This document shows, piece after piece, positions 1 through 12,338 of a DNA stretch of 64,000 nt (positions within the stretch are counted from its first letter, which is position 1; each line of letters opens with the position of its first letter). Below the pieces are notes generated by a model that was given only the letters and a program-made list of their open reading frames with translations, had not been told where the DNA came from and did no database searches. The stretch lies in NCBI RefSeq assembly GCF_000337495.1, contig NZ_AOIS01000013.1:1732-65731 (forward strand), read 5' to 3'. Origin of the DNA: Haloterrigena salina JCM 13891 (GTDB lineage Archaea; Halobacteriota; Halobacteria; Halobacteriales; Natrialbaceae). A program made the translations under genes and the position numbers.

Positions 1-152
1 AACGCTTTCGTGGTGTAGGGCTCGCTGCCGAGAACCGGATACAGATACCCGCTCAGGACGCAGGCGCCGGCGAGCAGCGCCAGCAACCATCGAATCGCTC
101 GGGAGTCGCCGGTCGTCGCGTACTCCCGGCGCGCGATCGTCGTCCACGACAT
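1..152 (-). CDS. ABC-2 type transporter permease, N-terminal part (cut by window edge)
   Basis: Only the first 50 or so codons are inside the window. The protein starts MSWTTIARREYATTGDSR, the usual juxtamembrane opening of ABC-2 permeases (compare MSGHIGTVARKEFEDAGRS of the permease at 6312-7187), followed by a first hydrophobic helix (WLLALLAGACVLSGYLY). Its ATG overlaps the TGA of the upstream ATPase gene by one base (TGATG), so the two are translationally coupled and should form one exporter. The substrate is unknown. The family call rests on the short N-terminus plus coupling to an ABC ATPase. Confidence 0.75.
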   Translation of the reverse strand, partial: MSWTTIARREYATTGDSRAIRWLLALLAGACVLSGYLYPVLGSEPYTTKA

Positions 153-1066
153 CAGCTCGCTCCGCTCGTGTACTCGACGAACATCTCCTCGAGCGACGCC
201 TCCTCCGTCCGGAAGTTCTCGATGTCGACGCCGGCCTCGTTGAGCGTGATCAGCACGTCCATCTTGGCGTCGTTCGAGCAGGTCACCTCGACCCGATTGG
301 CCTCGGGATTCGGCCAGGCGCGCTCGACGCCCGCGAGCGATTCGACCCGCTCGAGGACGCCCGCTTCGGCGCGGTCGACCGTGATCAACAGCTTCGTCGT
401 GCCGCCGACCGACTGGCGCAGTCCCTCGATCGTATCCGTCGCGACGAGTTCGCCGTCGTAGAGGATGCCGACGCGGTCACAGACCGCCTCGACCTGCTCT
501 AGGATGTGACTCGAGAAGAAGACGGTCGCGCCGCGCTCGCGTTCCTCGCGGATGACCGTTCGGATCTGCTTGATCCCGTGAGGGTCGAGCCCGCTGGTGG
601 GCTCGTCGAGGACGAGCAGGTCGGGCTCGCCGACCAACGCCATGCCGAGAACGAGCCGCTGGGCCATCCCCTTCGAGTAGCCACCGGCCCGCTGATCGGC
701 CGCGTCGCGGATCCCGACGCGATCGAGGACGGCCATCGGTTCGACGTCGGCCTCCTTGGCCTCGATCGCGTACTCGACGTGCTGGCGCCCGGTCAGTCGG
801 TCGTAGACGGTGTAGCCGTCCGGGAGGACGCCCATGCGGGACTTGGCCTCGACGGACTCCGACTGACAGTCGTGGCCGAAGATCGCCGCCCGCCCGTCGT
901 CCGGCTGGACGAAGTCGAGGAACACGTTGATCAGCGTCGACTTGCCCGCGCCGTTCGGTCCGAGGAAGCCGAAGACCTCGCCCTCGTCGACCGTCAGATC
1001 GACGCGATCGAGCGCCGTCACGGTCCCGTACCGCTTCGAGACGTTCTCGACCGTTATTGCAGCCAT
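152..1066 (-). CDS. ABC transporter ATP-binding protein (CcmA/drug-export type)
   Basis: 304 residues. Walker A GPNGAGKST lies at about 36-44, the signature SKGMAQ at 131-136, Walker B LVLDEP at 151-156 followed by the D-loop SGLD, and the switch histidine in FFSSHI near 187. This is the COG1131 class that powers ABC-2 exporters of drugs, lipids or peptides. It acts on the inner face of the membrane with the permease cut off at the window edge. A paralogue with the same layout lies at 7184-8161. The ATG at 1066 sits about 25 bases downstream of a TATA box (ACTATAAAAC read on the minus strand), which fits a leaderless transcript and fixes the start. The cargo cannot be read from the sequence; BcrA-like self-protection is one possibility given the halocin locus nearby. 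Confidence 0.93.
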   Translation of the reverse strand: MAAITVENVSKRYGTVTALDRVDLTVDEGEVFGFLGPNGAGKSTLINVFLDFVQPDDGRAAIFGHDCQSESVEAKSRMGVLPDGYTVYDRLTGRQHVEYAIEAKEADVEPMAVLDRVGIRDAADQRAGGYSKGMAQRLVLGMALVGEPDLLVLDEPTSGLDPHGIKQIRTVIREERERGATVFFSSHILEQVEAVCDRVGILYDGELVATDTIEGLRQSVGGTTKLLITVDRAEAGVLERVESLAGVERAWPNPEANRVEVTCSNDAKMDVLITLNEAGVDIENFRTEEASLEEMFVEYTSGAS

Positions 1067-1085
1067 GTATTGTTAGAAGAATAAT

Positions 1086-1095
1086 TGTTTTATAG
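1086..1095 (-). promoter_or_regulatory. TATA box of the first ABC exporter operon
   Basis: Minus strand reads ACTATAAAAC, about 25 bases upstream of the ATG at 1066. The spacing is that of archaeal TATA boxes on leaderless mRNAs, so transcription probably starts at or next to the A of the start codon. Confidence 0.6.
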
Positions 1096-1182
1096 TTCTT
1101 TTCACTCGACACGTCCGGCGGCGGTAAGTCGCCCACTCCCGAGGTCGCAGCCCTTAACAGTCGTCACCGCTAGTTTCCGACA

Positions 1183-2085
1183 ATGACTGACCGAGAAGGC
1201 GATCGCGAGGGCGATCACCGATTCTCCGACGGCGAGGGACTCGACAACGCCTACGAGGAGTTCGATCTGGACCCGCCGGAACTGGCCGTCGACCCGGGGA
1301 AAGTCGACCCCATCGATTCGCGAGTCGTCACCGACACGCTCGACGATCAGAACATCGCCACGGACGACGTCGACGCCGCGGAACTGCTCGACGTCGGCCT
1401 GAACTACATGCAGATCAACCGCTACGAGCAGGCCACCGACGCCTTCGAGCGGACCGCCCAGTTCGCCGAGGACGAGCGCCTAGAGCAGGAGGCGTGGGTG
1501 AACAAGGGCGTCGCCCACGCCGAACTCGAGGAGTACGACGCGGCGATCGGCGCCCACCGCGAGGCCATCAATATCGACGACTCGAGCGAGCACGCGGCGA
1601 CCGCCGAGACGAACCTCGCGTACGCGCTCTGGGAGTTCGGCGAGACCTCCCAGGCCTTAGACCACGCCGAGCGCGCCATCGAGATCGACGAGCGGTTCGC
1701 CGAGGGCTGGTTCAACCGCGCCTTCTTCCTCTCGGAGCGCGGACTGGCCGAGGAGGCCTTACACTGCATCGACAACGCCATTCGGCTGGGGCTTCGCAAT
1801 ACCAAGGTCCTCGAGGAGAAGGCCGAGATTCTGGAGGAGCTCGGCGAGTACGACGAGGCCGAAGAGATCGCCGAGGAGGCAAACGAGATGCGCGAGCGCG
1901 CCGAACAGCGCGTCATGGAGGAACGCACGGACGGCCAGTCCCAGGGACGAGGCCAGGGCGGCTCCCTCGGCGGTCCGCAGTCCCAGTCCCAGCCTCAGCG
2001 CGGACAGGACCCACAGGGCGGGTTCGATATCTCCGATCCCGGCCGGGCGTCCGACCGCGACGAGGAAGACTGGCGGCTCGAGTAA
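1183..2085 (+). CDS. Tetratricopeptide repeat protein
   Basis: 300 residues, very acidic. After an N-terminal disordered part, residues about 60-240 hold consecutive TPR-like helix pairs (for example NYMQINRYEQATDAFERTA, GVAHAELEEYDAAIGAHREA, WFNRAFFLSERGLAEEAL), so it is a helical protein-interaction scaffold. Residues about 245-285 are Gln/Gly/Ser-rich and probably unstructured. There is no signal peptide or membrane segment, so it should be cytoplasmic. A TATA-like CCTTAACAG lies about 30 bases before the ATG. The DUF424 gene follows after 3 bases, so the two form an operon. The partner is unknown. Confidence 0.85.
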   Translation: MTDREGDREGDHRFSDGEGLDNAYEEFDLDPPELAVDPGKVDPIDSRVVTDTLDDQNIATDDVDAAELLDVGLNYMQINRYEQATDAFERTAQFAEDERLEQEAWVNKGVAHAELEEYDAAIGAHREAINIDDSSEHAATAETNLAYALWEFGETSQALDHAERAIEIDERFAEGWFNRAFFLSERGLAEEALHCIDNAIRLGLRNTKVLEEKAEILEELGEYDEAEEIAEEANEMRERAEQRVMEERTDGQSQGRGQGGSLGGPQSQSQPQRGQDPQGGFDISDPGRASDRDEEDWRLE

Positions 2086-2088
2086 CGA

Positions 2089-2379
2089 ATGCTCGTCAAC
2101 GAACGGCAGACCCAGGAGGGACTGCTCGTGGCGGTCTGCGACGAGGACGTCCTCGGCGAAACCTTCGAGAGCGACGACATCTCGCTGACCGTCACCGAGG
2201 AGTTCTACGGTGGCGAGAGCGCCGACGAGAGCGCCGTCGTCGACAGCCTCTCGCGGGCGGCCGTCGCGAACCTCGTCGGCACGCGCGCCGTCGAACTCGC
2301 CATCGAAGAGGGCTTTGTCGACGAGGCGAACGTGCTCGAGGTCGGCTCGACGCTGCACGCGCAGTTGCTGTGGATGTAG
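2089..2379 (+). CDS. DUF424 family protein
   Basis: 96 residues. The small archaeal DUF424 family is recognised from the overall pattern: N-terminal MLVNERQTQEGLLVAVCDEDVLG, central FYGGE, C-terminal helix AVELAIEEGFVD and ending VLEVGSTLHAQLLWM. It is cytoplasmic, with no assigned reaction that I can state. It starts 3 bases after the TPR gene and is therefore co-transcribed. A role in translation or RNA has been suggested for the family by gene neighbourhoods, but nothing in this sequence shows it. Confidence 0.8.
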   Translation: MLVNERQTQEGLLVAVCDEDVLGETFESDDISLTVTEEFYGGESADESAVVDSLSRAAVANLVGTRAVELAIEEGFVDEANVLEVGSTLHAQLLWM

Positions 2380-2950
2380 CGCAGGCGGGCGGCGTTCGAA
2401 GGCGGCGGAGACGATTCGATTCGACGGAGATTTATCGGTTTGAGCCCGGAGACAACTCGAAGGTCATCGGTCGTGTTCCGAGGGACGAAGCGAGTTCTCG
2501 AGGAGGGTTCTGGCCGTTCACGCCCCGGAAACGGAGATCGATGGATAGATCCCTCTGACAGCGTGATCACGGAGACAGAACGGATGACGACGAAAATCCG
2601 TGAGCCGTCTGTCCGTCTGTGCCGGGCACTCTCACAAGGAGAAGTTCAGCCTCGGTATCGGGAACCGGTTCGGAACGGCTCCGACTCAGCTCGTGGACTC
2701 CGTGTTACTACTGTCAATTCGACATATTGATGCGGCCCACTACCGCTTTTTCATTTCGATCTATGATTTCCGTCGTAGATTCTCACACTGGTCCATTGTA
2801 GCACTCACGCCCACATAGACACTCGATTTCCACCAATATCTGAACCTTCAATAGTTGAATACAACATACATTTCTGATTATTATATTCTCTAAAATATGT
2901 ATCTTATCAATAGAAAAATTATTATTACCCAACCATTTAGTATAAATTGT
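2380..2950. other. Intergenic stretch, shifting to AT-rich DNA
   Basis: I see no convincing gene here. The first 300 bases have normal GC. From about 2740 the sequence becomes clearly AT-rich, with runs such as TTATTATATTCTCTAAAATATG and AAAAATTATTATTACCC. The last of these, near 2918-2930, is placed like a TATA box for the ATG at 2951. The composition change marks the left edge of the halocin locus and hints at acquired DNA; no integrase, IS or direct repeat was found at the edge. Confidence 0.5.
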
Positions 2951-3013
2951 ATGTCCGATAAGGACAACAATATCGATAGGCGTGACGTGTTAAAAGGACT
3001 CAGTAGTGCCTGA
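2951..3013 (+). pseudogene. Tat signal peptide start of the halocin precursor, ended by in-frame TGA
   Basis: An ATG at 2951 opens a 20-codon frame, MSDKDNNIDRRDVLKGLSSA, closed by TGA at 3011-3013. The next codon, ATG at 3014, continues in the same frame as MTGIAATMSITVAAADG. Joined, the two pieces make a normal haloarchaeal Tat leader: RR motif, hydrophobic core, small-residue end. The TGA most likely replaced GGA (Gly, one base change), giving SSAGMTGIA. So the real precursor gene should be 2951-3868, with either a nonsense mutation, a sequencing error, or read-through at this codon. A TATA-like tract lies about 27 bases upstream of 2951. Confidence 0.75.
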
Positions 3014-3868
3014 ATGACCGGAATTGCAGCCACCATGTCGATTACTGTCGCAGCGGCCGATGGCACGTCGGGAGATGGGGCGGCGTCGGATCCGATTACG
3101 ATCCTGGAAGGATCGGAAAAGCTCGCACTCGCCGAAGAGATCAAAGAAACCGAAGCGTTTGACGACCTGCTCGAGACAGCAACTGAGTTGGGATACGAGT
3201 TCGAGTTCGACCTCAACGCTATCGATGCGGGTCGGGCAGAGGCCGATGCGCTACGCCGCGAGGTCGTCGCGTACGAACTCAGCGGTGTCGAGTCGGACGC
3301 TCGTGCCGGGATCATCATCGGCCGTGATCTGGATACGCATGAGATCGAGTTCGCGCAGCTCGACGTCGAGAACTATTACGACGATGGTCTTCTCGAAAAG
3401 GTAGATCGATACGAACTGTCCGTGAGCGACGAGTATCCGTCGGGGACGAACCTCAGTCCTGCAGCGGGTACGGAGTCGACGATCGAAAAGCGAGAGATCC
3501 GGCCCGACGAGGCGTCGCTCCGTCAGTTCACGAACGACCTACAACGAAGCGGAACCGTCACCCCGGCGCTGCCGGATCTCCCCGACTCACTGAACATCAA
3601 TTCATGTAGCGGCTGTTACTACGCTTCGAAACTGATCTGTCGGAACGTGTGCGGAGCGTTCGGCGGATTCCTCTGTGGACTGCTCGGCATCACGGTCGTC
3701 GGACCGGTGGGCTGTCTCGCGTTCGTGAATGGTGTATGTTGGGTCGCTGAGAAAGCGAGCGGTTGCGGTGACGACCTCGCAGCGACCATCTGCAAATCGT
3801 CCGGACTCGGCGTTTGCGGACCAGGCGCGGACGGTGATATTATCGACGTCGATATTCCGTACTTCTGA
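3014..3868 (+). CDS. Halocin C8-like antimicrobial precursor (propeptide plus 10-Cys peptide)
   Basis: 284 residues from the first ATG after the stop. Residues about 20-190 are acidic and soluble and correspond in position to the HalI immunity/propeptide part of the halocin C8 precursor. Residues about 195-284 are a small, Gly-rich, hydrophobic peptide with ten cysteines (198 to 268). The pattern CSGCYYA, VCGAFGGFLCGLLGITV, GCLAFVNGVC, SGCGDDLA matches mature halocin C8 as I remember it (CSACKYA, AAGGFICGLLGIT, GFVEIVC, SGCGDAVA), including the cysteine count. Unlike C8 there are about 16 residues after the last cysteine, ending VDIPYF. Halocin C8 is exported by Tat and cleaved; here the RR-containing start is cut off by TGA (see 2951-3013), so secretion is doubtful. 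A bPH2 membrane protein lies convergently downstream. Confidence 0.85.
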   Translation: MTGIAATMSITVAAADGTSGDGAASDPITILEGSEKLALAEEIKETEAFDDLLETATELGYEFEFDLNAIDAGRAEADALRREVVAYELSGVESDARAGIIIGRDLDTHEIEFAQLDVENYYDDGLLEKVDRYELSVSDEYPSGTNLSPAAGTESTIEKREIRPDEASLRQFTNDLQRSGTVTPALPDLPDSLNINSCSGCYYASKLICRNVCGAFGGFLCGLLGITVVGPVGCLAFVNGVCWVAEKASGCGDDLAATICKSSGLGVCGPGADGDIIDVDIPYF

Positions 3869-3966
3869 AGGAGACGCGAGCACGATCGTCTGCACAGCGG
3901 TCCACTTGACTGGACCGCACTGCCCGATTCGGAACTTATTTCGAATTCGACGAACGGTCCGTGAAC

Positions 3967-5562
3967 TCACGTCATCCGTGTAACTCTGTGCGCGTGCTCC
4001 CGGAGCGACCGTTGTAGGTGCTCTCGACTGGCACAGTGGATATCACGAGTCCTCTCGAGTTCGATATCGTAGATTACTGGTGTTCTCCAGGTAAACGTCC
4101 GTGAACTGGCCGTGTCTACGACGAGAGAGGCGAGTCCGAGTCGACGCTGGAAGATCGATCGGCGCGTCGAGACGGTCTGAATCCGATAGTAGGGGACGAT
4201 GGTCGTTCGGCGTCGCCAGAATCCGCGCCGGATAACGAGGTGCTCGTCGCCGACGACGTACCCCAAATGGGCGTATTTCAGGTGGGCAGCGAGCGGAACG
4301 GCCGCAAAGGCGAGGACGGAGAACCGCCACCGCTCGACGGTAGTCAACTGGGCGATCGCGAAAGCGCCGGCGACCACACCGGTGGCCACGAGCGAATAGC
4401 GGGCGAAATAGCGGCGTCGAGCGGTCGTCGGTGGACGCCGAAACTCAGGTCGGTCGATACCGGTCAGCAACTCTCCGAAGCGGGAGACGCGAGACGCGTC
4501 TGCGAGGGGAACGACCGATTGATTACTGCCGCCGCTTCTGGGTCCGTATCCAGCGGTTTCGACCCACAGTCCGGCGTAGCCCATCAACCGTTGAACGGGA
4601 TTATCGGTGACCGTTACGGACTGGACTTTATCGAACGGAATCGATCCGCTGTACCGTCGGCCCAGACCGCGTTCGTAGACGAGATCGGATCCCTGTCGAC
4701 CGAGGCGGAGCCCGTAGTAGTTACCGATCTTGTAGAGGATACTGGCGAGATACGTGAGGAGCGCCCACTGGATCAAGGCGATCACGAGCAGCACGACGAG
4801 GGCACTGCCCGCAGCGCCATCGAGCGATGCAGGCCCGCCGAAGGGACGGGCGATCTCGAACATGAACTGCGGCAACAACGCGGATCGAAGATCCCCGTCA
4901 GTTATCCAGAGAAACAGCAAAAGCGGAAAGAGCATGGTGTCCCATCGGAACGAGGAGACGGCGTACAGCAGTAGTTCGCGGAGTTTCAGTTCGAACAACA
5001 GCGTCGGTTCGCGGTCCGGTCGAGCGGTTTCCTCGCGGCCGGTGTCGTCGGAATCCGCGCCGCTGCTCGGCTCCGTCGTGGCTGCCCCGTCGGCGTCGTC
5101 CGTAGTACCAGCGGCGGCTGTCTGACGACGTATCTCCGTCCGAATCCGATCGGCTTCGTCCTCGTCGACGAGATCCAGCATCGCTTCGGCGTCGCTGTCA
5201 CCGGCCGTTTCGATCGAGACGACGGCCAATCCGAGCAGTCGCTGAGTCATCCGTTGCGACACATCGACGTTCTGAATCCGTCGATACGGGATCTCACGGG
5301 AGCGACGAGCGAAGACACCAGAGGTGATGTCGAACGTGTCCGACGTGATCTCGTAGGTAAATTGGTAGTAATACGTGAGACCGTAGCAGACGCCAACGAT
5401 GAATCCAATGGGACTGAGACGCAGTGCCCAGATCAGATCAATCGGGAAGATGCTAGCTGCGATCATACCGAAGAAGATCGGTGCCGAGAACCCGAGGAAC
5501 CCTCTCCGGAACGCGATTCGCAACGCACTGAACGGGTGCAAGCGATTGACGTCAGATGCCAT
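3967..5562 (-). CDS. Membrane protein with three bPH2 domains (YdbT-like, COG3428)
   Basis: 531 residues. Three copies of the bacterial PH-2 (DUF304) unit are visible, each a YxI/YxL strand pair, an IPYxRIQxV- or IPFDKVQSV-like segment and a QRLLGLA..ETAG or QRRLGLA..DTAS segment: about residues 66-125, 275-335 and 430-490. Pairs of transmembrane helices precede them. A start-deciding Shine-Dalgarno GAGAGG lies about 9 bases before the ATG. It is convergent with the halocin-like gene (98 bases apart). YdbS/YdbT-type proteins give resistance to some bacteriocins in Bacillus, and bPH2 proteins occur in leaderless-bacteriocin clusters, so an immunity role is an attractive inference. The usual short YdbS partner is not adjacent; a single-domain bPH2 gene is far away at 52123. 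Confidence 0.88.
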   Translation of the reverse strand: MASDVNRLHPFSALRIAFRRGFLGFSAPIFFGMIAASIFPIDLIWALRLSPIGFIVGVCYGLTYYYQFTYEITSDTFDITSGVFARRSREIPYRRIQNVDVSQRMTQRLLGLAVVSIETAGDSDAEAMLDLVDEDEADRIRTEIRRQTAAAGTTDDADGAATTEPSSGADSDDTGREETARPDREPTLLFELKLRELLLYAVSSFRWDTMLFPLLLFLWITDGDLRSALLPQFMFEIARPFGGPASLDGAAGSALVVLLVIALIQWALLTYLASILYKIGNYYGLRLGRQGSDLVYERGLGRRYSGSIPFDKVQSVTVTDNPVQRLMGYAGLWVETAGYGPRSGGSNQSVVPLADASRVSRFGELLTGIDRPEFRRPPTTARRRYFARYSLVATGVVAGAFAIAQLTTVERWRFSVLAFAAVPLAAHLKYAHLGYVVGDEHLVIRRGFWRRRTTIVPYYRIQTVSTRRSIFQRRLGLASLVVDTASSRTFTWRTPVIYDIELERTRDIHCASREHLQRSLREHAHRVTRMT

Positions 5563-5804
5563 TGGAAACCTCTCTTGAAGCGGTCGGTTCGCAACGTAGC
5601 CCTCTGGACGGAGAGTGCGATGGGGTATCTCTGCTTCCGCCCGCTCTGTACTGGTGAACTCGCGCTTTGGGATTCGAGGTTCGGAGCGACACAGTGGATC
5701 TGTCTTCGGCCAGTCTGGCCAAGGATCACTGCGTTCCAGTACGGCGAACTCGGGCCGACAGCCACTGTTGTGAAGGAAATCTCACGGACCGAGCTTTCGG
5801 CGAC

Positions 5805-5909
5805 TTACGGGAGGAACGTCGCGAAGAAACTCAGCAGACGATCGAGCAGTTCGTTCTTTTGGTTCTCCTCGTCGTCAGTACCTTCATCAGTGTCGGACTG
5901 GGAACTCAT
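5805..5909 (-). CDS. 34-residue acidic peptide, unknown
   Basis: ATG at 5909, TAA at 5805-5807. The N-terminal half is Ser/Asp/Glu-rich (MSSQSDTDEGTDDEENQ); the C-terminal half is an amphipathic hydrophobic helix ending LLDRLLSFFATFLP. A strong TATA element (AAAATATATG on the minus strand, about 5933-5943) lies 25-30 bases before the ATG, as expected for a leaderless gene, which is the main reason to believe it. It lies 242 bases upstream of the bPH2 gene on the same strand. The layout resembles a tiny membrane-active, leader or regulatory peptide, but no family is recognised. Confidence 0.45.
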   Translation of the reverse strand: MSSQSDTDEGTDDEENQKNELLDRLLSFFATFLP

Positions 5910-6311
5910 AGTGGTATATACTCCGAGTACACGCATATATTTTGTGTGGGTTGCTGAGAAACATTCGCAGAAATCATTCGAACGGTCTAAGCGAACGCAA
6001 CTGTCGGGTTTTCTGCAGCGGGAATTTGCGAGGTCTTCCCGTTCGCTTCTTGAGGAAGTGTCCGACCGTCTCTGGGTGCGCTCTACACACTAAAGATGTG
6101 AACCGCCGAGCGACGAGCGCTCGGCCGCCCGCTTCGATCGCGGCCGCTGATATCGAAACGGTTTGGAAACGCTGATACGGATCTCGGTTGGGAATACGAA
6201 GGTAGCGATCTCGCACGATGTCATCGACGGCCCCTCGCCGCGCTCGAGTCCGTCGACAGTGCGCCACCGCGCGAGTCGGTCGGACCGAACGGGGAAATCA
6301 GTTCGAGTCGT
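5910..6311. other. Intergenic region with promoter of the 34-residue peptide
   Basis: Holds the TATA-like ATATATTTTG at about 5935-5944 (plus-strand reading) serving the minus-strand peptide gene. The rest, up to the stop of the permease gene at 6312, shows no coding sequence that I would defend. It marks the right edge of the halocin/bPH2 locus. Confidence 0.45.
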
Positions 6312-7187
6312 TCAAAGATCCGTCCGATTGAACCGATAGTAGCCGATCGCGACGGGGACGACCAGCCAGCACAGCAGGACGACGACGCCGAACTCGTCTT
6401 GGAGGTAGAACGGCGCGTCGCCGGGATAGCGTTCGGCGGGCGTCATCCCGTAGGCCCCGGCCGACTGGAGCCCGTACTGGAACTGGAACGGGAACACCGA
6501 TCCCTCGACGATCTGGCTGATCAGGTTAGTGTAGGCGAAGATCGGATTGAACTGCTCGAGGAGGAGGTACCAGGTTTCGGCCTCGACCGGCGGTCCCTCA
6601 CCGTAGATGAGGTGGTAGGGACCCGCCGTGATGAGCTCCCACAGCGCGATGAGAATCATGTAGATCCCGACGACGATCGCCATCGACTTCCCCCGGGTGG
6701 AGACGGCGGCGGAGGTGCCGACGGCCAGTCCGGCGAAGGCCGCCCCGAACAGCGCGGAGACGGCGGCGAAGCCGAGCCAGTCGACGAACGGAACCGAGCC
6801 GAACAGGACCGCGCTGAGGACCAGCGAGACGAGGCAGGCGAGCGCGACGGCGGCGGTGACGACGGCCGTCCGGCCAAGTAGCTTCCCGAAGACGACGTCG
6901 GTCCGGTTCGGCGGCAGGCCCAAGAGGAGCTTGATGCTCCCCGAGCGTCGCTCCCCGACGACGGCCATGTAACCGGCGATCAGCGCCGCGATGGGGAGAA
7001 TTACCTGCAGGGGCGTGCCGACGAAGCTGAGCACCTCCGCCGCGGTGACGTCGTCGGCCGTGTACCAGATCGCGACGTAGCCGACGGTGACCAGTCCGAC
7101 GAGCAGTCCGATCAGCGACCACAGCAATTTCGAGCGCCCGGCGTCCTCGAACTCCTTGCGGGCGACGGTGCCGATGTGTCCGCTCAT
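6312..7187 (-). CDS. ABC-2 type transporter permease
   Basis: 291 residues with six predicted membrane helices, for example LLWSLIGLLVGLVTVGYVAIW, TPLQVILPIAALIAGYMAVVG, VVTAAVALACLVSLVLSAVLFG, LFGAAFAGLAVGTSAAVST, MAIVVGIYMILIALWELI and VVVLLCWLVVPVAIGYYRF. Between the second and third comes the ERRSGSIKLLLGLPPNRTDVV loop typical of ABC-2 permeases. It pairs with the ATPase at 7184-8161, whose TGA overlaps this ATG by four bases (ATGA). The module exports an unknown substrate and is a paralogue of the one at the left window edge. Confidence 0.9.
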   Translation of the reverse strand: MSGHIGTVARKEFEDAGRSKLLWSLIGLLVGLVTVGYVAIWYTADDVTAAEVLSFVGTPLQVILPIAALIAGYMAVVGERRSGSIKLLLGLPPNRTDVVFGKLLGRTAVVTAAVALACLVSLVLSAVLFGSVPFVDWLGFAAVSALFGAAFAGLAVGTSAAVSTRGKSMAIVVGIYMILIALWELITAGPYHLIYGEGPPVEAETWYLLLEQFNPIFAYTNLISQIVEGSVFPFQFQYGLQSAGAYGMTPAERYPGDAPFYLQDEFGVVVLLCWLVVPVAIGYYRFNRTDL

Positions 7188-8161
7188 CGAGCCACCCCCG
7201 ACTCCGACGCGGTCGCGGAAGCAGTCTCCGTCTCGGTCGCCGCCTCGCTCTCGTCGCCGTTCGTCAGCGCCGTGAACAGCGTCTCGAGCGAGACGTCATC
7301 GATCCGCACGTCCTCGATCGTCGCCCCCGCGTCGTCGAGCGCGATCACGAGGTCCGCTTTCGCGGCCGGATCGGTGACCGTACACTCGAGGGCGTGGTCG
7401 GACGCGACGACGTCGGTGATGCCGGCGATCGACGCGGCGGTCTCGCGCAGGCCTGCGGCCGCCTCGACGAGGGTCAGTTCCATCGTCGCGCCGCCGCCGA
7501 TGTCCTCGCGGAGCCCCTCGATGGTGTCGACGGCGACGAGTTCGCCGTCGTTCAACACGCCCACGCGGTCACAGACCGCCTCGACGTGCTGGAGGATGTG
7601 ACTCGAGAAGAAGACGGTCGTTCCGCGCTCGGCCTCGGCGCGAACCAGGTCCTGCATCTCCCGGATGCCGTGGGGGTCGAGGCCGCTCGAGGGCTCGTCC
7701 ATGATCAGCAGGTCGGGGTCGCCGACGAGGGCCATTCCGGTCGCGAGGCGTTGGCACATCCCCTTAGAGTAGTCGCCCGCGGGCCGATCGGCGTCATCGG
7801 CGGAGAGGCCCACGCGCTCGATGATCGCGTCGGGATCGTTGTCGGCGTCCTTGGTCTCGATCGCGAACTCGACGTGCCGGCGCCCCGAGAGGCGCGGGTA
7901 GATGTCGAACCCCTCGGGGAGGACACCGACTCGGGGACTGATCGCGTCGGCTTCGGTCTGTGCGTCGTAGCCGAGCACCGTCGCCGAGCCCGCGGACGGG
8001 CGGGTTAAATCGAGCAGCATGTTGATCGTCGTCGACTTCCCGGCGCCGTTGGGCCCCAGAAAGCCGAACACCTCTCCTTTCTCGACCGAGAGGTTGAGGT
8101 CGTCGACGGCGACGAGGTCGCCGTACGTTTTCGTCAGGCCGGACGTCTCTATCGCGGTCAT
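7184..8161 (-). CDS. ABC transporter ATP-binding protein (drug-export type)
   Basis: 325 residues from the ATG at 8161 (MTAIETSGLTKTYG). The frame is open much further upstream but only as antisense to sufS. Walker A GPNGAGKST at about 36-44, signature YSKGMCQRL, Walker B LLIMDEPSSGLD and switch FFSSHIL match the ATPase at 152-1066 almost position by position, including VLPEGFDIYPRLSGRRHVEFA versus VLPDGYTVYDRLTGRQHVEYA. The last 25 residues are a Thr/Ala/Glu-rich tail absent from the paralogue. It is coupled to the permease gene by an ATGA overlap. Confidence 0.92.
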   Translation of the reverse strand: MTAIETSGLTKTYGDLVAVDDLNLSVEKGEVFGFLGPNGAGKSTTINMLLDLTRPSAGSATVLGYDAQTEADAISPRVGVLPEGFDIYPRLSGRRHVEFAIETKDADNDPDAIIERVGLSADDADRPAGDYSKGMCQRLATGMALVGDPDLLIMDEPSSGLDPHGIREMQDLVRAEAERGTTVFFSSHILQHVEAVCDRVGVLNDGELVAVDTIEGLREDIGGGATMELTLVEAAAGLRETAASIAGITDVVASDHALECTVTDPAAKADLVIALDDAGATIEDVRIDDVSLETLFTALTNGDESEAATETETASATASESGVAR

Positions 8162-8590
8162 ACATCGCATTCGAGACACACGGTTCACATAATCGCTGGA
8201 TCGCGGCTTCACGATCGGAAACTCCGACGGAATCGAACGCCCTCCGCGGAACGCTCTCCGCAGAACGGCCGTCCGAGACCGACTACGCCCGCAATCGGGG
8301 ACTCGAGTCGGCGTACCAACAGACACCCAACATAGTTTGGGAACATCGATATGTCGATCGAAAGAGAACACGAAGATGGCAGGGCGGGATACTGGACGAT
8401 TCGACAACATCCCTGCCGAGGCACCCACCCACCGACCCACCATTCCCAAACCACTCCCCACCACTCCCACCACTCCGTCCACTATCCACCGCTTCCCGCA
8501 TCCCGTTTTTCGCGTATCGTCCGTCGCAGACGACGGCTTCGAGTGCCTCGACCGAAGGAGTGTTTTGTCTGGGGTTCCTCCGGTTAGACA
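8162..8590. other. Divergent intergenic region between ABC exporter and sufS
   Basis: 429 bases without a supported gene. It must carry the promoters for the ABC operon (minus) and sufS (plus). From about 8420 to 8500 the plus strand is almost free of G, with many CCC runs; see the separate entry. Confidence 0.5.
8424..8468 (-). other. Potential G-quadruplex tract
   Basis: On the minus strand six runs of three or four G occur within 45 bases (complement of CCC at 8424-8426, 8428-8430, 8436-8438, 8445-8447, 8456-8459, 8466-8468). Loops between the first four runs are 1, 5 and 6 bases, which satisfies the usual G3N1-7 rule. The tract is about 120-165 bases upstream of the sufS start. Function is inferred only. 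Confidence 0.5.
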
Positions 8591-9835
8591 ATGAGTCAAC
8601 AGAACCTCGAGTCGCTCGACGTCGGAGCGATTCGCGACGAGTTCCCCATCCTCGAGCGCGAGTTCGACGGCCAGCAGGTCGTCTACCTCGACAACGCGGC
8701 GACGACCCAGACCCCCGACCCGGTCGTCGACGCAATGAGCGACTACTATCGCGAGTCCAACGCGAACATCCACCGGGGGATCCACCACCTCAGTCAGGAG
8801 GCTTCGATTCTCTACGAGGAGGCCCACGACCGCGTCGCCGAGTTCATCAACGCCGACGGCCGCGAGGAGGTCATCTTCACCAAGAACACGACCGAGAGCG
8901 AGAACCTCGTCGCCTATGCGTGGGGCCTGAACGAACTCGGGCCCGGCGATCGGGTCGTCCTCACGGAGATGGAACACCACGCCTCGCTGGTCACGTGGCA
9001 GCAGATCGGCGAGAAGACCGGCGCCGACGTCGAGTACATCCGCATCGACGATGACGGCCGTCTGGACATGGACCACGCCCGCGAACTCATCGACGACGAC
9101 ACCGCCATCCTCTCGGCGGTCCACGTCTCGAACACGCTGGGAACGGTCAATCCCGTCTCCGAACTCACTGATCTCGCCCACGAACACGGGGCGCTCTCCT
9201 TTATCGACGGCGCGCAGGCGGTCCCCAACCGCCCCGTCGACGTCGAGGCCATCGACGCCGACTTCTACGCCTTCTCCGGACACAAGATGGCCGGTCCCAC
9301 CGGCATCGGCGTCCTCTACGGCAAGCAGCACCTCCTCGAGGAGATGGAGCCGTACCTCTACGGCGGCGGCATGATTCGAAAGGTCACCTACGAGGAGTCC
9401 ACGTGGGGCGACCTGCCCTGGAAGTTCGAACCCGGAACGCCCCAGATCGCCGAAGCCGTCGGCCTCGAGGCTGCCATCGACTGGCTCGAGGACATCGGCA
9501 TGGAACGGATCCAGGCCCACGAGGAGGAGATCGCCCGCTACGCCTACGAGCAACTCGAGAGCGAGGAGGACGTCGAGATCTACGGCCCCGAGCCGGGTCC
9601 AGACCGCGGCGGCCTCGTCAGCTTCAACGTCGAGGGCGTCCACGCCCACGACCTGGCCTCGATCATGAACGACCACACGATCGCGGTTCGGGCCGGCGAC
9701 CACTGTACCCAGCCGCTTCACGACAAGCTCGGCGTACCGGCCTCGACTCGAGCGTCGTTCTACGTCTACAACACGCGAGAGGAAGTCGACAAGCTGGTCG
9801 CGGCGCTGGACGACGCGCGACAGCTGTTCGCGTAA
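8591..9835 (+). CDS. sufS: Cysteine desulfurase SufS/CsdA type
   Basis: 414 residues. A PLP enzyme that takes sulfur from L-cysteine, leaving alanine, and passes the persulfide to Fe-S assembly. The PLP lysine is in FSGHKMAGPTG (K232) and the catalytic cysteine in RAGDHCTQPLH (C372). The opening YLDNAATTQTPDPVVDAM and the QEASILYEEAHDRVAEFI helix are typical of the SufS (group II) branch. Length matches the family. The scaffold gene sufU follows 2.5 kb downstream on the same strand rather than adjacent. Confidence 0.96.
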   Translation: MSQQNLESLDVGAIRDEFPILEREFDGQQVVYLDNAATTQTPDPVVDAMSDYYRESNANIHRGIHHLSQEASILYEEAHDRVAEFINADGREEVIFTKNTTESENLVAYAWGLNELGPGDRVVLTEMEHHASLVTWQQIGEKTGADVEYIRIDDDGRLDMDHARELIDDDTAILSAVHVSNTLGTVNPVSELTDLAHEHGALSFIDGAQAVPNRPVDVEAIDADFYAFSGHKMAGPTGIGVLYGKQHLLEEMEPYLYGGGMIRKVTYEESTWGDLPWKFEPGTPQIAEAVGLEAAIDWLEDIGMERIQAHEEEIARYAYEQLESEEDVEIYGPEPGPDRGGLVSFNVEGVHAHDLASIMNDHTIAVRAGDHCTQPLHDKLGVPASTRASFYVYNTREEVDKLVAALDDARQLFA

Positions 9836-9955
9836 TCGGTTCTCAGTCCTCACACTATCGTCCACGATCTCGATTTCGCGTCTTCCACCCACTCGAGGAG
9901 CCGTGGCCCTCGATCGACCGCGCGAGCTATCGCCGTCGGCGACCTAGACGCGGCG

Positions 9956-10510
9956 ATGACTCGAGGGACCGTCACGCTGTACATCGCCGCCAGTCTGGAC
10001 GGGTTCATCGCGACCGCAGACGGCGGCGTCGAGTGGCTCGAGGCGTACGCGAGCGACGACGAGAGCGAAGACGACAGGAGTTTCGAGGCGTTCTTTACCG
10101 GAATCGACTGCCTCGTCATGGGCTCGCGGACGTACGAACAGATCCTGTCGTTCGACGAGTGGCCCTACGGGGAGAAACCGACGGTCGTCGTCACGGGCCG
10201 AGACCTCCCGCTCGCGACCGACCGCGTCGAACTGGTCGCCGGCGATCTCCGCGAGTTGGGCGACGGGCTCGAGGAGCGGTACGACCGCATCTGGCTCGTC
10301 GGCGGCGCGGCGCTCGCGCAGTCGTTTCTTCGGGCGGGACTCGTCGACGAGATCCGTCTGACGGTCGTTCCGGTGTTGCTCGGCGGGGGCATCCGTCTCT
10401 TCGCCGACGACGGTGCGGAACGCGCTCTCGAGACGCTCGAGTGTACGTCGTTCGAGAGCGGACTCGTCGAACTCCGATACGACGTGTCCGGGTGCACCCC
10501 GTCGGTTTGA
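9956..10510 (+). CDS. Dihydrofolate reductase family protein (RibD C-terminal-like)
   Basis: 184 residues. Starts TLYIAASLDGFIATADGGVEWL, the hallmark of the YwjB/YyaP branch of RibD_C/DHFR-fold proteins; LVMGSRTYEQIL and IWLVGGAALAQSFLRAGLVDEIRLTVVPVLLGGG are the NADPH-fold motifs. These proteins are predicted NADPH-dependent reductases; a riboflavin or folate substrate is not certain because the deaminase domain of RibD is missing. The stand-alone small form is common in haloarchaea. It stands as its own unit between sufS and a GNAT gene. Confidence 0.88.
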   Translation: MTRGTVTLYIAASLDGFIATADGGVEWLEAYASDDESEDDRSFEAFFTGIDCLVMGSRTYEQILSFDEWPYGEKPTVVVTGRDLPLATDRVELVAGDLRELGDGLEERYDRIWLVGGAALAQSFLRAGLVDEIRLTVVPVLLGGGIRLFADDGAERALETLECTSFESGLVELRYDVSGCTPSV

Positions 10511-10552
10511 CCGGGCCGGACCGCGCTCCGGCGAAAGTATTAGTCGACTCGC

Positions 10553-11023
10553 GTGGGTGCCACGAGCGTGAGCAGCGTGACGGTCGTGCTTCGGCGGGCC
10601 GACGAGAGCGACCTTCCATATGTCGAGCGACTGCTGTCGGACGAGGGGTTGCCGTCGGCGGACGTCCGGTCGTCGCCCGCGCGGTTCTACGTCGGCTATG
10701 ACGGGGACGAGCGAATCGGCGTCGGCGGCCTCGAGCGTTACGGCACTGACGGGCTGCTCCGATCTGTCGTCGTGGAGCGATCGGCGCGAGCCGACGGGTA
10801 CGGCACGGCCCTCTGTGCGGCGCTGGAGCGGCGGGCGCGAGCCGACGGCGTCGAGACGCTGTACCTGCTGACGACGACCGCGGCCGAGTTCTTCGCAGAG
10901 CGAGGTTACGAGTACGTCGAACGGACCGACGCGCCGTCCGCGATTCGGGAGACGACCGAGTTCGACGAACTCTGTCCCGCGTCGGCCGCGTGTCTGCGGA
11001 AGTCCGTGCTCGAGGGGGCGTGA
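10553..11023 (+). CDS. GNAT N-acetyltransferase (ArsN2-like)
   Basis: 156 residues from a GTG start at 10553. Compact GNAT fold: VVLRRADESDLPYVERLL at the start, RFYVGYDGDERIGVGGLERYG, then the acetyl-CoA loop LLRSVVVERSARADGYGTALCAALERRARADG, and LYLLTTTAAEFFAERGYEYVERTDAP near the end. The last segment and the length resemble the arsenic-resistance acetyltransferase ArsN2, but no arsenic gene is nearby, so the substrate is open. It follows the reductase gene by 42 bases and may be co-transcribed. Confidence 0.82.
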   Translation: MGATSVSSVTVVLRRADESDLPYVERLLSDEGLPSADVRSSPARFYVGYDGDERIGVGGLERYGTDGLLRSVVVERSARADGYGTALCAALERRARADGVETLYLLTTTAAEFFAERGYEYVERTDAPSAIRETTEFDELCPASAACLRKSVLEGA

Positions 11024-11144: not shown

Positions 11145-11780
11145 ATGCTCGAGGCAGTCCGAACCCGCGCGCGCAGCTATTTCGAGGCGGCACCGCCGGC
11201 CCACGACTGGCACCACGTCCAACGCGTCGAGACGCTCGCGGAGACGCTGATCGACCGCCATCCAAGCGATGAAATCGACGACCGGATCGTCCGCCTCGCC
11301 GTCCTCCTGCACGACATCGGCCGCGGGAAGGAAGACGCCGGCGAGATCGACGATCACGCGGCGTGGGGCGCCCGCGAATCGCGTCGCATCCTCGAGGACG
11401 TCGGCGCCGATCCGGCGACGATCGACGCCGTCGCCCACTGCGTACGCGCCCACCGCTATTCGAACGCCGTCGAACCCGAGCGCCTCGAGGCCGAGATCGT
11501 CAGCGACGCGGACAACCTCGACGCGCTCGGCGCGGTCGGGATCGCGCGCACCTTCGCCCACGGCGGCGCGCTGGGCGAGCCGATTTACGATCCCGCAGTG
11601 CCGGTCGCCGACGACGAGACGGCCGCCGGGGCTACACAGTACAACCACCTCCACGAGAAGATCCTCGGCCTCCCCGAGCGCATGTACACCGACGTCGGCC
11701 GGGAACTCGCCGAGCGACGCGCGGCGTTCGTCCGCGAGTACGTCGCGCAGTTCGACGCCGAACTGACCGGCGAGCGCTGA
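11145..11780 (+). CDS. HD domain phosphohydrolase
   Basis: 211 residues from ATG at 11145 (MLEAVRTRARSYFE); a TATA-like TTTATT about 27 bases upstream supports this start over one further upstream. HD-superfamily metal motif: HDWHHVQRV, then LLHDIGRGKEDAG (the HD pair), HAAWGARESRRIL, HCVRAHRYS and SDADNLDALGAVG, the order seen in YedJ-like proteins. Such proteins cut phosphomonoesters or diesters with two metals; the substrate here is unknown. Cytoplasmic, single-gene unit. Confidence 0.88.
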   Translation: MLEAVRTRARSYFEAAPPAHDWHHVQRVETLAETLIDRHPSDEIDDRIVRLAVLLHDIGRGKEDAGEIDDHAAWGARESRRILEDVGADPATIDAVAHCVRAHRYSNAVEPERLEAEIVSDADNLDALGAVGIARTFAHGGALGEPIYDPAVPVADDETAAGATQYNHLHEKILGLPERMYTDVGRELAERRAAFVREYVAQFDAELTGER

Positions 11781-11907
11781 TCCGGGCGCCTCGAGCGTTG
11801 GCGTCGCGGTCCGATCGGTCCTCGAGCCATCAGTTCGGGAACAACAACAAACTCGCGTAGGGTTTTTGGGAATCGCCACGGTACTAGGCGGTGCCGAGGT
11901 GAGAACG

Positions 11908-12156
11908 ATGCAAGAGAGGACGATCGGCCGTCCCCGACGAGATCCCTTCGAGACCCTGGTCGATGTTCTCGCCGAGGCCAGCCGGTACGACCTCCTCTTG
12001 GGGGTCGTCCCGGTCGCGTTTACGGTTGCGCTGGTCGCGGCACACGTTCTGCGCCTGCCGGTAGTGCACGCGATGTTCGGCGCGGCGACTATCGGCGCGC
12101 TCGTGGTCGTCGATGCCTGCTACCTCAATCCCCCCGTCGACCAGGGATCGCCGTAG
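11908..12156 (+). CDS. Small hypothetical membrane protein
   Basis: 82 residues from ATG at 11908; a TTG at 11866 would add 14 residues and is less likely. A short charged N-terminus (MQERTIGRPRRDPFETLVD) is followed by two hydrophobic helices, LLLGVVPVAFTVALVAAHVL and AMFGAATIGALVVVDACYL. The layout recalls small haloarchaeal two-helix membrane proteins. No function can be assigned. Confidence 0.65.
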   Translation: MQERTIGRPRRDPFETLVDVLAEASRYDLLLGVVPVAFTVALVAAHVLRLPVVHAMFGAATIGALVVVDACYLNPPVDQGSP

Positions 12157-12338
12157 CGGTATCGACCGCCAACCGTTTCCCGCGGTCGATGGACCGCGTC
12201 GAGGGAGAACTGTACCGACGCCAGCGACGCGTCCGCCGAGTAGCGCCCGTTTGTGACCGCAGTCGGACCGCTCGCGATACCGGAGCAGCGTCGGCCCCGG
12301 AACCCTTTTACAACTCTCGCGTCTATTCGGGACTACCA

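Follow-up and report, generated by a model that had tools for sequence, protein, structure and literature searches.

YdbS/YdbT-type membrane protein genes recur beside halocin C8-like genes in Natrialbaceae and may form a self-protection module

The window (the whole 64,000-nucleotide stretch of Haloterrigena salina JCM 13891 DNA that was analysed) carries on its minus strand a gene for a YdbT-like membrane protein. The open reading frame occupies exactly positions 3967–5562, starts with ATG and encodes 531 amino acids. The Pfam model PF03703 (bPH_2) matches three stretches of the protein (E 2.6e-53), and several such domains are the mark of the YdbT family. In an AlphaFold2 model built on a 25-sequence alignment (mean pLDDT 83) hydrophobic helices precede each of three PH-type beta domains, and the hydropathy peaks agree with membrane helices ahead of the PH domains. 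Reading frame, domain matches and model together bear out the triple-bPH2 membrane protein that a first-pass annotation had placed here. A Foldseek search of the model against the PDB returned generic PH-type domains only, none with E < 0.001. We looked for a YdbS partner beside the gene and found none, so that this locus holds a YdbT without the YdbST pair. Compared with the copy in Natrinema thermotolerans the gene has a dN/dS of 0.21; it is intact and under purifying selection.

A halocin C8-like gene lies on the plus strand (2951–3868), convergent to the bPH2 gene and with its stop codon ending 98 bp from it. The open reading frame 3014–3868 includes an intact HalI-like N-terminal domain (PF22862, Hac8_like_N, E 5.7e-26) and an intact Cys-rich halocin C8 domain (TIGR04449, E 6.7e-13, 49.4 bits against a cut-off of 24), which confirms the convergent halocin-like neighbour described earlier. 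Two points had been missed: the natural start of the gene is the ATG at 2951, and an in-frame TGA at 3011–3013 breaks the Tat signal (RRDVLK), giving MSDKDNNIDRRDVLKGLSSA*MTGIAA..., after which the frame is open to the gene end. The window halocin consequently has no intact Tat signal. In the N. thermotolerans copy ATA replaces the ATG, and no other ATG, GTG or TTG is found ahead of the RR motif. Both sequenced copies of the window-type halocin therefore have a lesion in the export signal and both bPH2 genes are intact; as both genomes are draft assemblies, sequence error is possible for both halocin lesions. The dN/dS between the two halocin copies is 0.13, which shows that the gene was functional for most of the time over which they diverged.

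The two genes are part of a 3.9-kb accessory insert (2381–6315), which apart from them contains no more than a micro-ORF. The site is empty in four close relatives (G296, G192, G255 and G116; G numbers denote genomes and L numbers loci). In G296, window positions 1–2380 and 6316–11000 were matched at 95–96% with about 310 bp between them, and the picture is the same in the other three. The ABC transporter at 6312–8165 was considered as a part of the module and ruled out, since the relatives carry it at this site without the insert. N. thermotolerans DSM 11552 (G025, locus L089) has the same insert at the same site, encoding a bPH2 protein 86% identical to that of the window, and was the sole match when genome contigs were searched with the window YdbT. 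Between these two genomes the bPH2 gene has a dS of 0.37 and the halocin gene one of 0.63, with 0.41–0.61 in four flanking genes; the halocin and bPH2 genes have thus been kept together over roughly the period in which the flanks diverged.

The micro-ORF (5805–5909), on the minus strand like the bPH2 gene and upstream of it, encodes 34 amino acids, MSSQSDTDEGTDDEENQKNELLDRLLSFFATFLP. It is conserved in N. thermotolerans, with 91% identity and a dS of 0.10 versus at least 0.37 in the neighbouring genes. Relatives that end in LATYLP were observed in G130 (two copies), G293 and G411, in each case away from bPH2 genes, and the micro-ORF was for this reason ruled out as a general bPH2 partner. It appears to represent a haloarchaeal family of micropeptides that has not been described before.

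The first-pass annotation had raised the possibility of an archaeal halocin/bPH2 pairing, which a survey of the neighbours of halocin C8-like genes would bring out or dispel. We searched 391 genomes of the class with TIGR04449, covering five families more fully and the haloarchaea beyond them by sampling. This gave 77 distinct halocin C8-like loci picked regardless of bPH2, namely the window and 76 others with up to 10 kb on each side; not counted were a second site inside L099 and one duplicate genome, and contig ends truncate a few of the loci. The bPH2 genes were detected with a profile grown from the window protein, and the halocins with one curated and one local model. A bPH2 gene was found at eight of the 77 loci: the window, L089, L107 (G375), L115 (G181), L121 (G091), L154 (G396), and L156 and L157 (both G398). 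At each of these the nearest bPH2 gene is at most about 1.2 kb from the halocin gene, and at none of the 77 loci was bPH2 found at 1.2–10 kb only, a clustering of eight near and none far. The linked loci are confined to the family Natrialbaceae, where they make up about one in five (8 of 37), with none among the 40 loci elsewhere; most halocin C8-like loci have no adjacent bPH2 gene.

The number of adjacent loci expected by chance among the 77 is 0.38, from a background of 4 to 5 bPH2 clusters per genome that is, if anything, too high, as the five genomes in which it was counted contain linked copies. Window and L089, like L107 and L156, are the same locus in two species, which leaves six independent cases; the probability of six or more by chance is 3e-6. 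The survey thus found enrichment, adjacency to a peptide antimicrobial gene being well above chance, and the halocin/bPH2 pairing is real. The proposal has to be narrowed in other respects: the pairing concerns only a part of the halocins in one family, the bPH2 protein is no simple replacement for HalI, and the pair in the window is atypical.

Four separate loci (L107/L156, L115, L154 and L196, the last from the reverse search described below) share the order halocin, ydbS, ydbT on one strand, while the orientation is divergent in L121 and L157 and convergent in the window and L089. YdbS is present beside YdbT in L107, L115, L121, L154, L156, L157 and L196. One locus with the three-gene order is on plasmid pHTUR02 of Haloterrigena turkmenica DSM 5511 (G181, replicon C3), a genome of the same GTDB genus as that of the window. 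The linked bPH2 copies come in addition to a core ydbST cluster that lies elsewhere in the same genome. In the YdbT tree the linked proteins need at least three label changes and hence represent at least three YdbT lineages: window and L089 group within the core clade, beside the core copy of the genus itself (94/92), L107 and L156 form one deep clade, L115 stands alone on a long branch, and L121 and L157 share another clade with an unlinked protein (G000 C18). The linked halocins also appear in several places of the halocin tree, where at least three changes are forced (FastTree only). L154, which is in the same genomic neighbourhood as L121, is decayed in its halocin and ydbST parts alike. 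The L121 halocin, suspected of being broken, was cleared, as the suspect TAA is its natural stop. These data show that in Natrialbaceae an additional YdbS/YdbT module, separate from the core ydbST cluster, was repeatedly acquired beside halocin C8-type genes. With its lone YdbT, convergent arrangement and damaged halocin gene, the window locus is a stripped-down, atypical example.

The association was also examined in the reverse direction, by searching all 125 genomes of the family Natrialbaceae with a profile of five linked YdbT proteins. Thirteen accessory YdbT proteins scored above 440 bits, with core proteins at about 303 bits and less. Five of the thirteen were the linked proteins already known, and a sixth (G192 C7, L196) is preceded, at a distance of about 97 bp and in the same orientation, by a Tat-type halocin gene, which adds one pair to those of the survey. 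The other seven come from three unlinked loci (G397; G057/G087; and G000 C18, G197, G192 and G296 as one group), and reading the surroundings in G397, G057, G087, G000 and G197 showed that accessory ydbST without a halocin gene also exists (G397, G057/G087 and G000 C18). The association from YdbT to halocin is strong but not exclusive. The L196 halocin C8-like precursor (11318–12238, minus strand) has a Tat motif and 8 Cys, and with 21.7 bits against the TIGR04449 cut-off of 24 it would escape standard annotation. Searching from YdbT is accordingly a route to halocins that current models miss, and one was found in this way.

Other membrane proteins recur beside halocin C8-like genes, namely multi-helix permease-like proteins of about 535 amino acids, four-helix proteins of 125 amino acids and two-helix proteins of 60–75 amino acids. 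In L070, L077, L092, L112 and L168 the halocin gene is immediately followed, in the same orientation, by one for a four-helix protein of 120–129 amino acids; in four of the five the gene for the multi-helix protein of about 535 amino acids comes next, and neither protein has a Pfam match. These two possibly constitute another dedicated partner unit, and YdbST may be one of several alternative partners for the same place beside the halocin. The commonest neighbour family is a regulator with HVO_A0261_N and FilR1-type domains, found in L074 (10978–11787) and at 13 other halocin loci. In L102, L103, L106, L167 and L170 the halocin gene is immediately preceded, in the same orientation, by one for an AMP-binding enzyme of about 655–675 amino acids, and four of these five also have a convergent gene downstream for a protein of about 240 amino acids without a Pfam match. 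The window genome (G000) itself has two further halocin C8-like genes, on C17 and C27 (L074 and L094), without a bPH2 neighbour.

The halocin C8 precursor ProC8 is reported to be exported by the Tat pathway and split into HalI and HalC8 (PMC11509114), and immunity to halocin C8 is reported to need HalI only (Sun 2005, cited in PMC11509114). The linked halocins, where intact, share this precursor layout of a Tat signal, a HalI-like N-terminal domain and a Cys-rich C8 domain. We considered that they had lost the HalI-like domain and that YdbST replaced it, since PF22862 and a first profile had missed the domain. This was rejected: a profile started from L196 and L115 joined both groups (profile-profile match 97.8%) and showed that the intact linked halocins, which carry Tat motifs, retain a divergent HalI-like domain. 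YdbST would thus be an addition and no simple replacement of HalI. Unlike HalC8, reported as one gene for both production and immunity, the linked loci add a second, separate membrane module.

In Gram-positive bacteria YdbS/YdbT homologues are known beside bacteriocins, as the first-pass annotation had stated (PMC8657885, PMC10311245, PMC11580447). Such PH proteins accompany leaderless bacteriocins: DdE/DdF of EntDD14, LnqC/LnqD of lacticin Q, Orf7/Orf8 of aureocin A53 and Geo6B/Geo6C of geobacillin 6. They resemble the halocin-linked proteins in being a small one-domain and a large multi-domain bPH2 membrane protein beside a peptide antimicrobial. The halocin loci, however, are archaeal, their peptide is Tat-exported, Cys-rich and provided with its own HalI-like domain instead of being leaderless, and the linked unit has no ABC transporter, the window copy consisting of YdbT only. 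A Parageobacillus plasmid match was ruled out as a geobacillin-type locus, as its surroundings showed no recognisable gene for such a peptide. Bacillus subtilis YdbST confers resistance to antimicrobial(s) from B. amyloliquefaciens, according to Butcher and Helmann 2006 as cited in PMC10311245. This sigma-W regulon pair has the same protein architecture as haloarchaeal YdbST, but its counterpart among the haloarchaeal genes is the core ydbST cluster more than the halocin-linked copies. It is not known to lie next to a bacteriocin gene. No paper joining halocins with PH-domain proteins was found in the literature searched.

We infer that immunity is the best reading of the pairing. The linked YdbS/YdbT module would work in or at the membrane and shield the producer from extracellular halocin, in addition to the HalI-like domain borne by the precursor itself. 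YdbT, with its hydrophobic helices alternating with PH-type domains, would likely bind the peptide or alter the membrane to block insertion. A repeatedly acquired, putatively self-protective YdbS/YdbT module beside Natrialbaceae halocins is our best explanation overall, though we regard it as an even call. A little short of that is the broader proposal of a cross-domain self-protection module, recruited independently beside Gram-positive leaderless bacteriocins and, on several occasions in haloarchaea, beside Tat-exported halocins, where it would add a second layer to the built-in HalI. The retained HalI-like domain speaks against immunity, as does a window YdbT that lacks YdbS and is convergent instead of operonic, and so do the lack of bPH2 at most halocin C8-like loci and the existence of accessory ydbST away from any halocin gene.

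The immunity reading is also held back by DdE and DdF, the PH proteins beside a leaderless Enterococcus bacteriocin. They are required for EntDD14 export, as the peptide stays trapped in the cell once ddE or ddF is deleted, and were not demonstrated to confer immunity (PMC8657885). Linked YdbST might likewise move or release the halocin or clear precursor stuck inside, with no immunity role; the architecture is the same and four loci have the operon order. We consider this unlikely, because the intact linked halocins have Tat signals, the reported route of ProC8 (PMC11509114), so that a dedicated exporter is not obviously needed, because most halocin C8-like loci manage without adjacent ydbST, and because in the window the export signal is broken and the bPH2 gene is still intact. 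Still less probable is that halocin and accessory ydbST genes are functionally unconnected mobile cargo landing in the same variable places. The linked loci are indeed accessory, one is on a plasmid, and L121 and L154 share a genomic neighbourhood, but insertion hot spots would also place bPH2 genes at 1.2–10 kb, where the 77 loci have none, and four separate loci, whose YdbST lineages differ, all show the same-strand order.

For the window alone, the pair could be no functional immunity unit but a stray duplicate of core YdbT sharing an insert with a decaying halocin, the true ydbST–halocin pairs being elsewhere. Its place inside the core clade, the missing YdbS, the convergent arrangement and the signal or start lesions in both known copies fit this. 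We nevertheless think it improbable, given that two genera keep the pair at one and the same site, that its two genes have diverged to much the same extent as the flanks, that the insert has no other gene of size, and that the halocin dN/dS shows function for most of that time. On the self-protection reading, the duplicate of core YdbT would fill the module's place without YdbS, as half of a convergent two-gene insert; a halocin half recently lesioned in its export signal beside a bPH2 half that is kept would be as expected of a self-protection gene outlasting a decaying weapon.

The named strain H. turkmenica DSM 5511, with its pHTUR02 locus, is a ready test system. Our data suggest that archaea recruited YdbS/YdbT-type proteins to live with their own halocin weapon. 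For halocin C8, reported as a one-gene weapon with built-in immunity, recurrent YdbST partners would connect the ways in which archaea and bacteria protect themselves against their own peptides.
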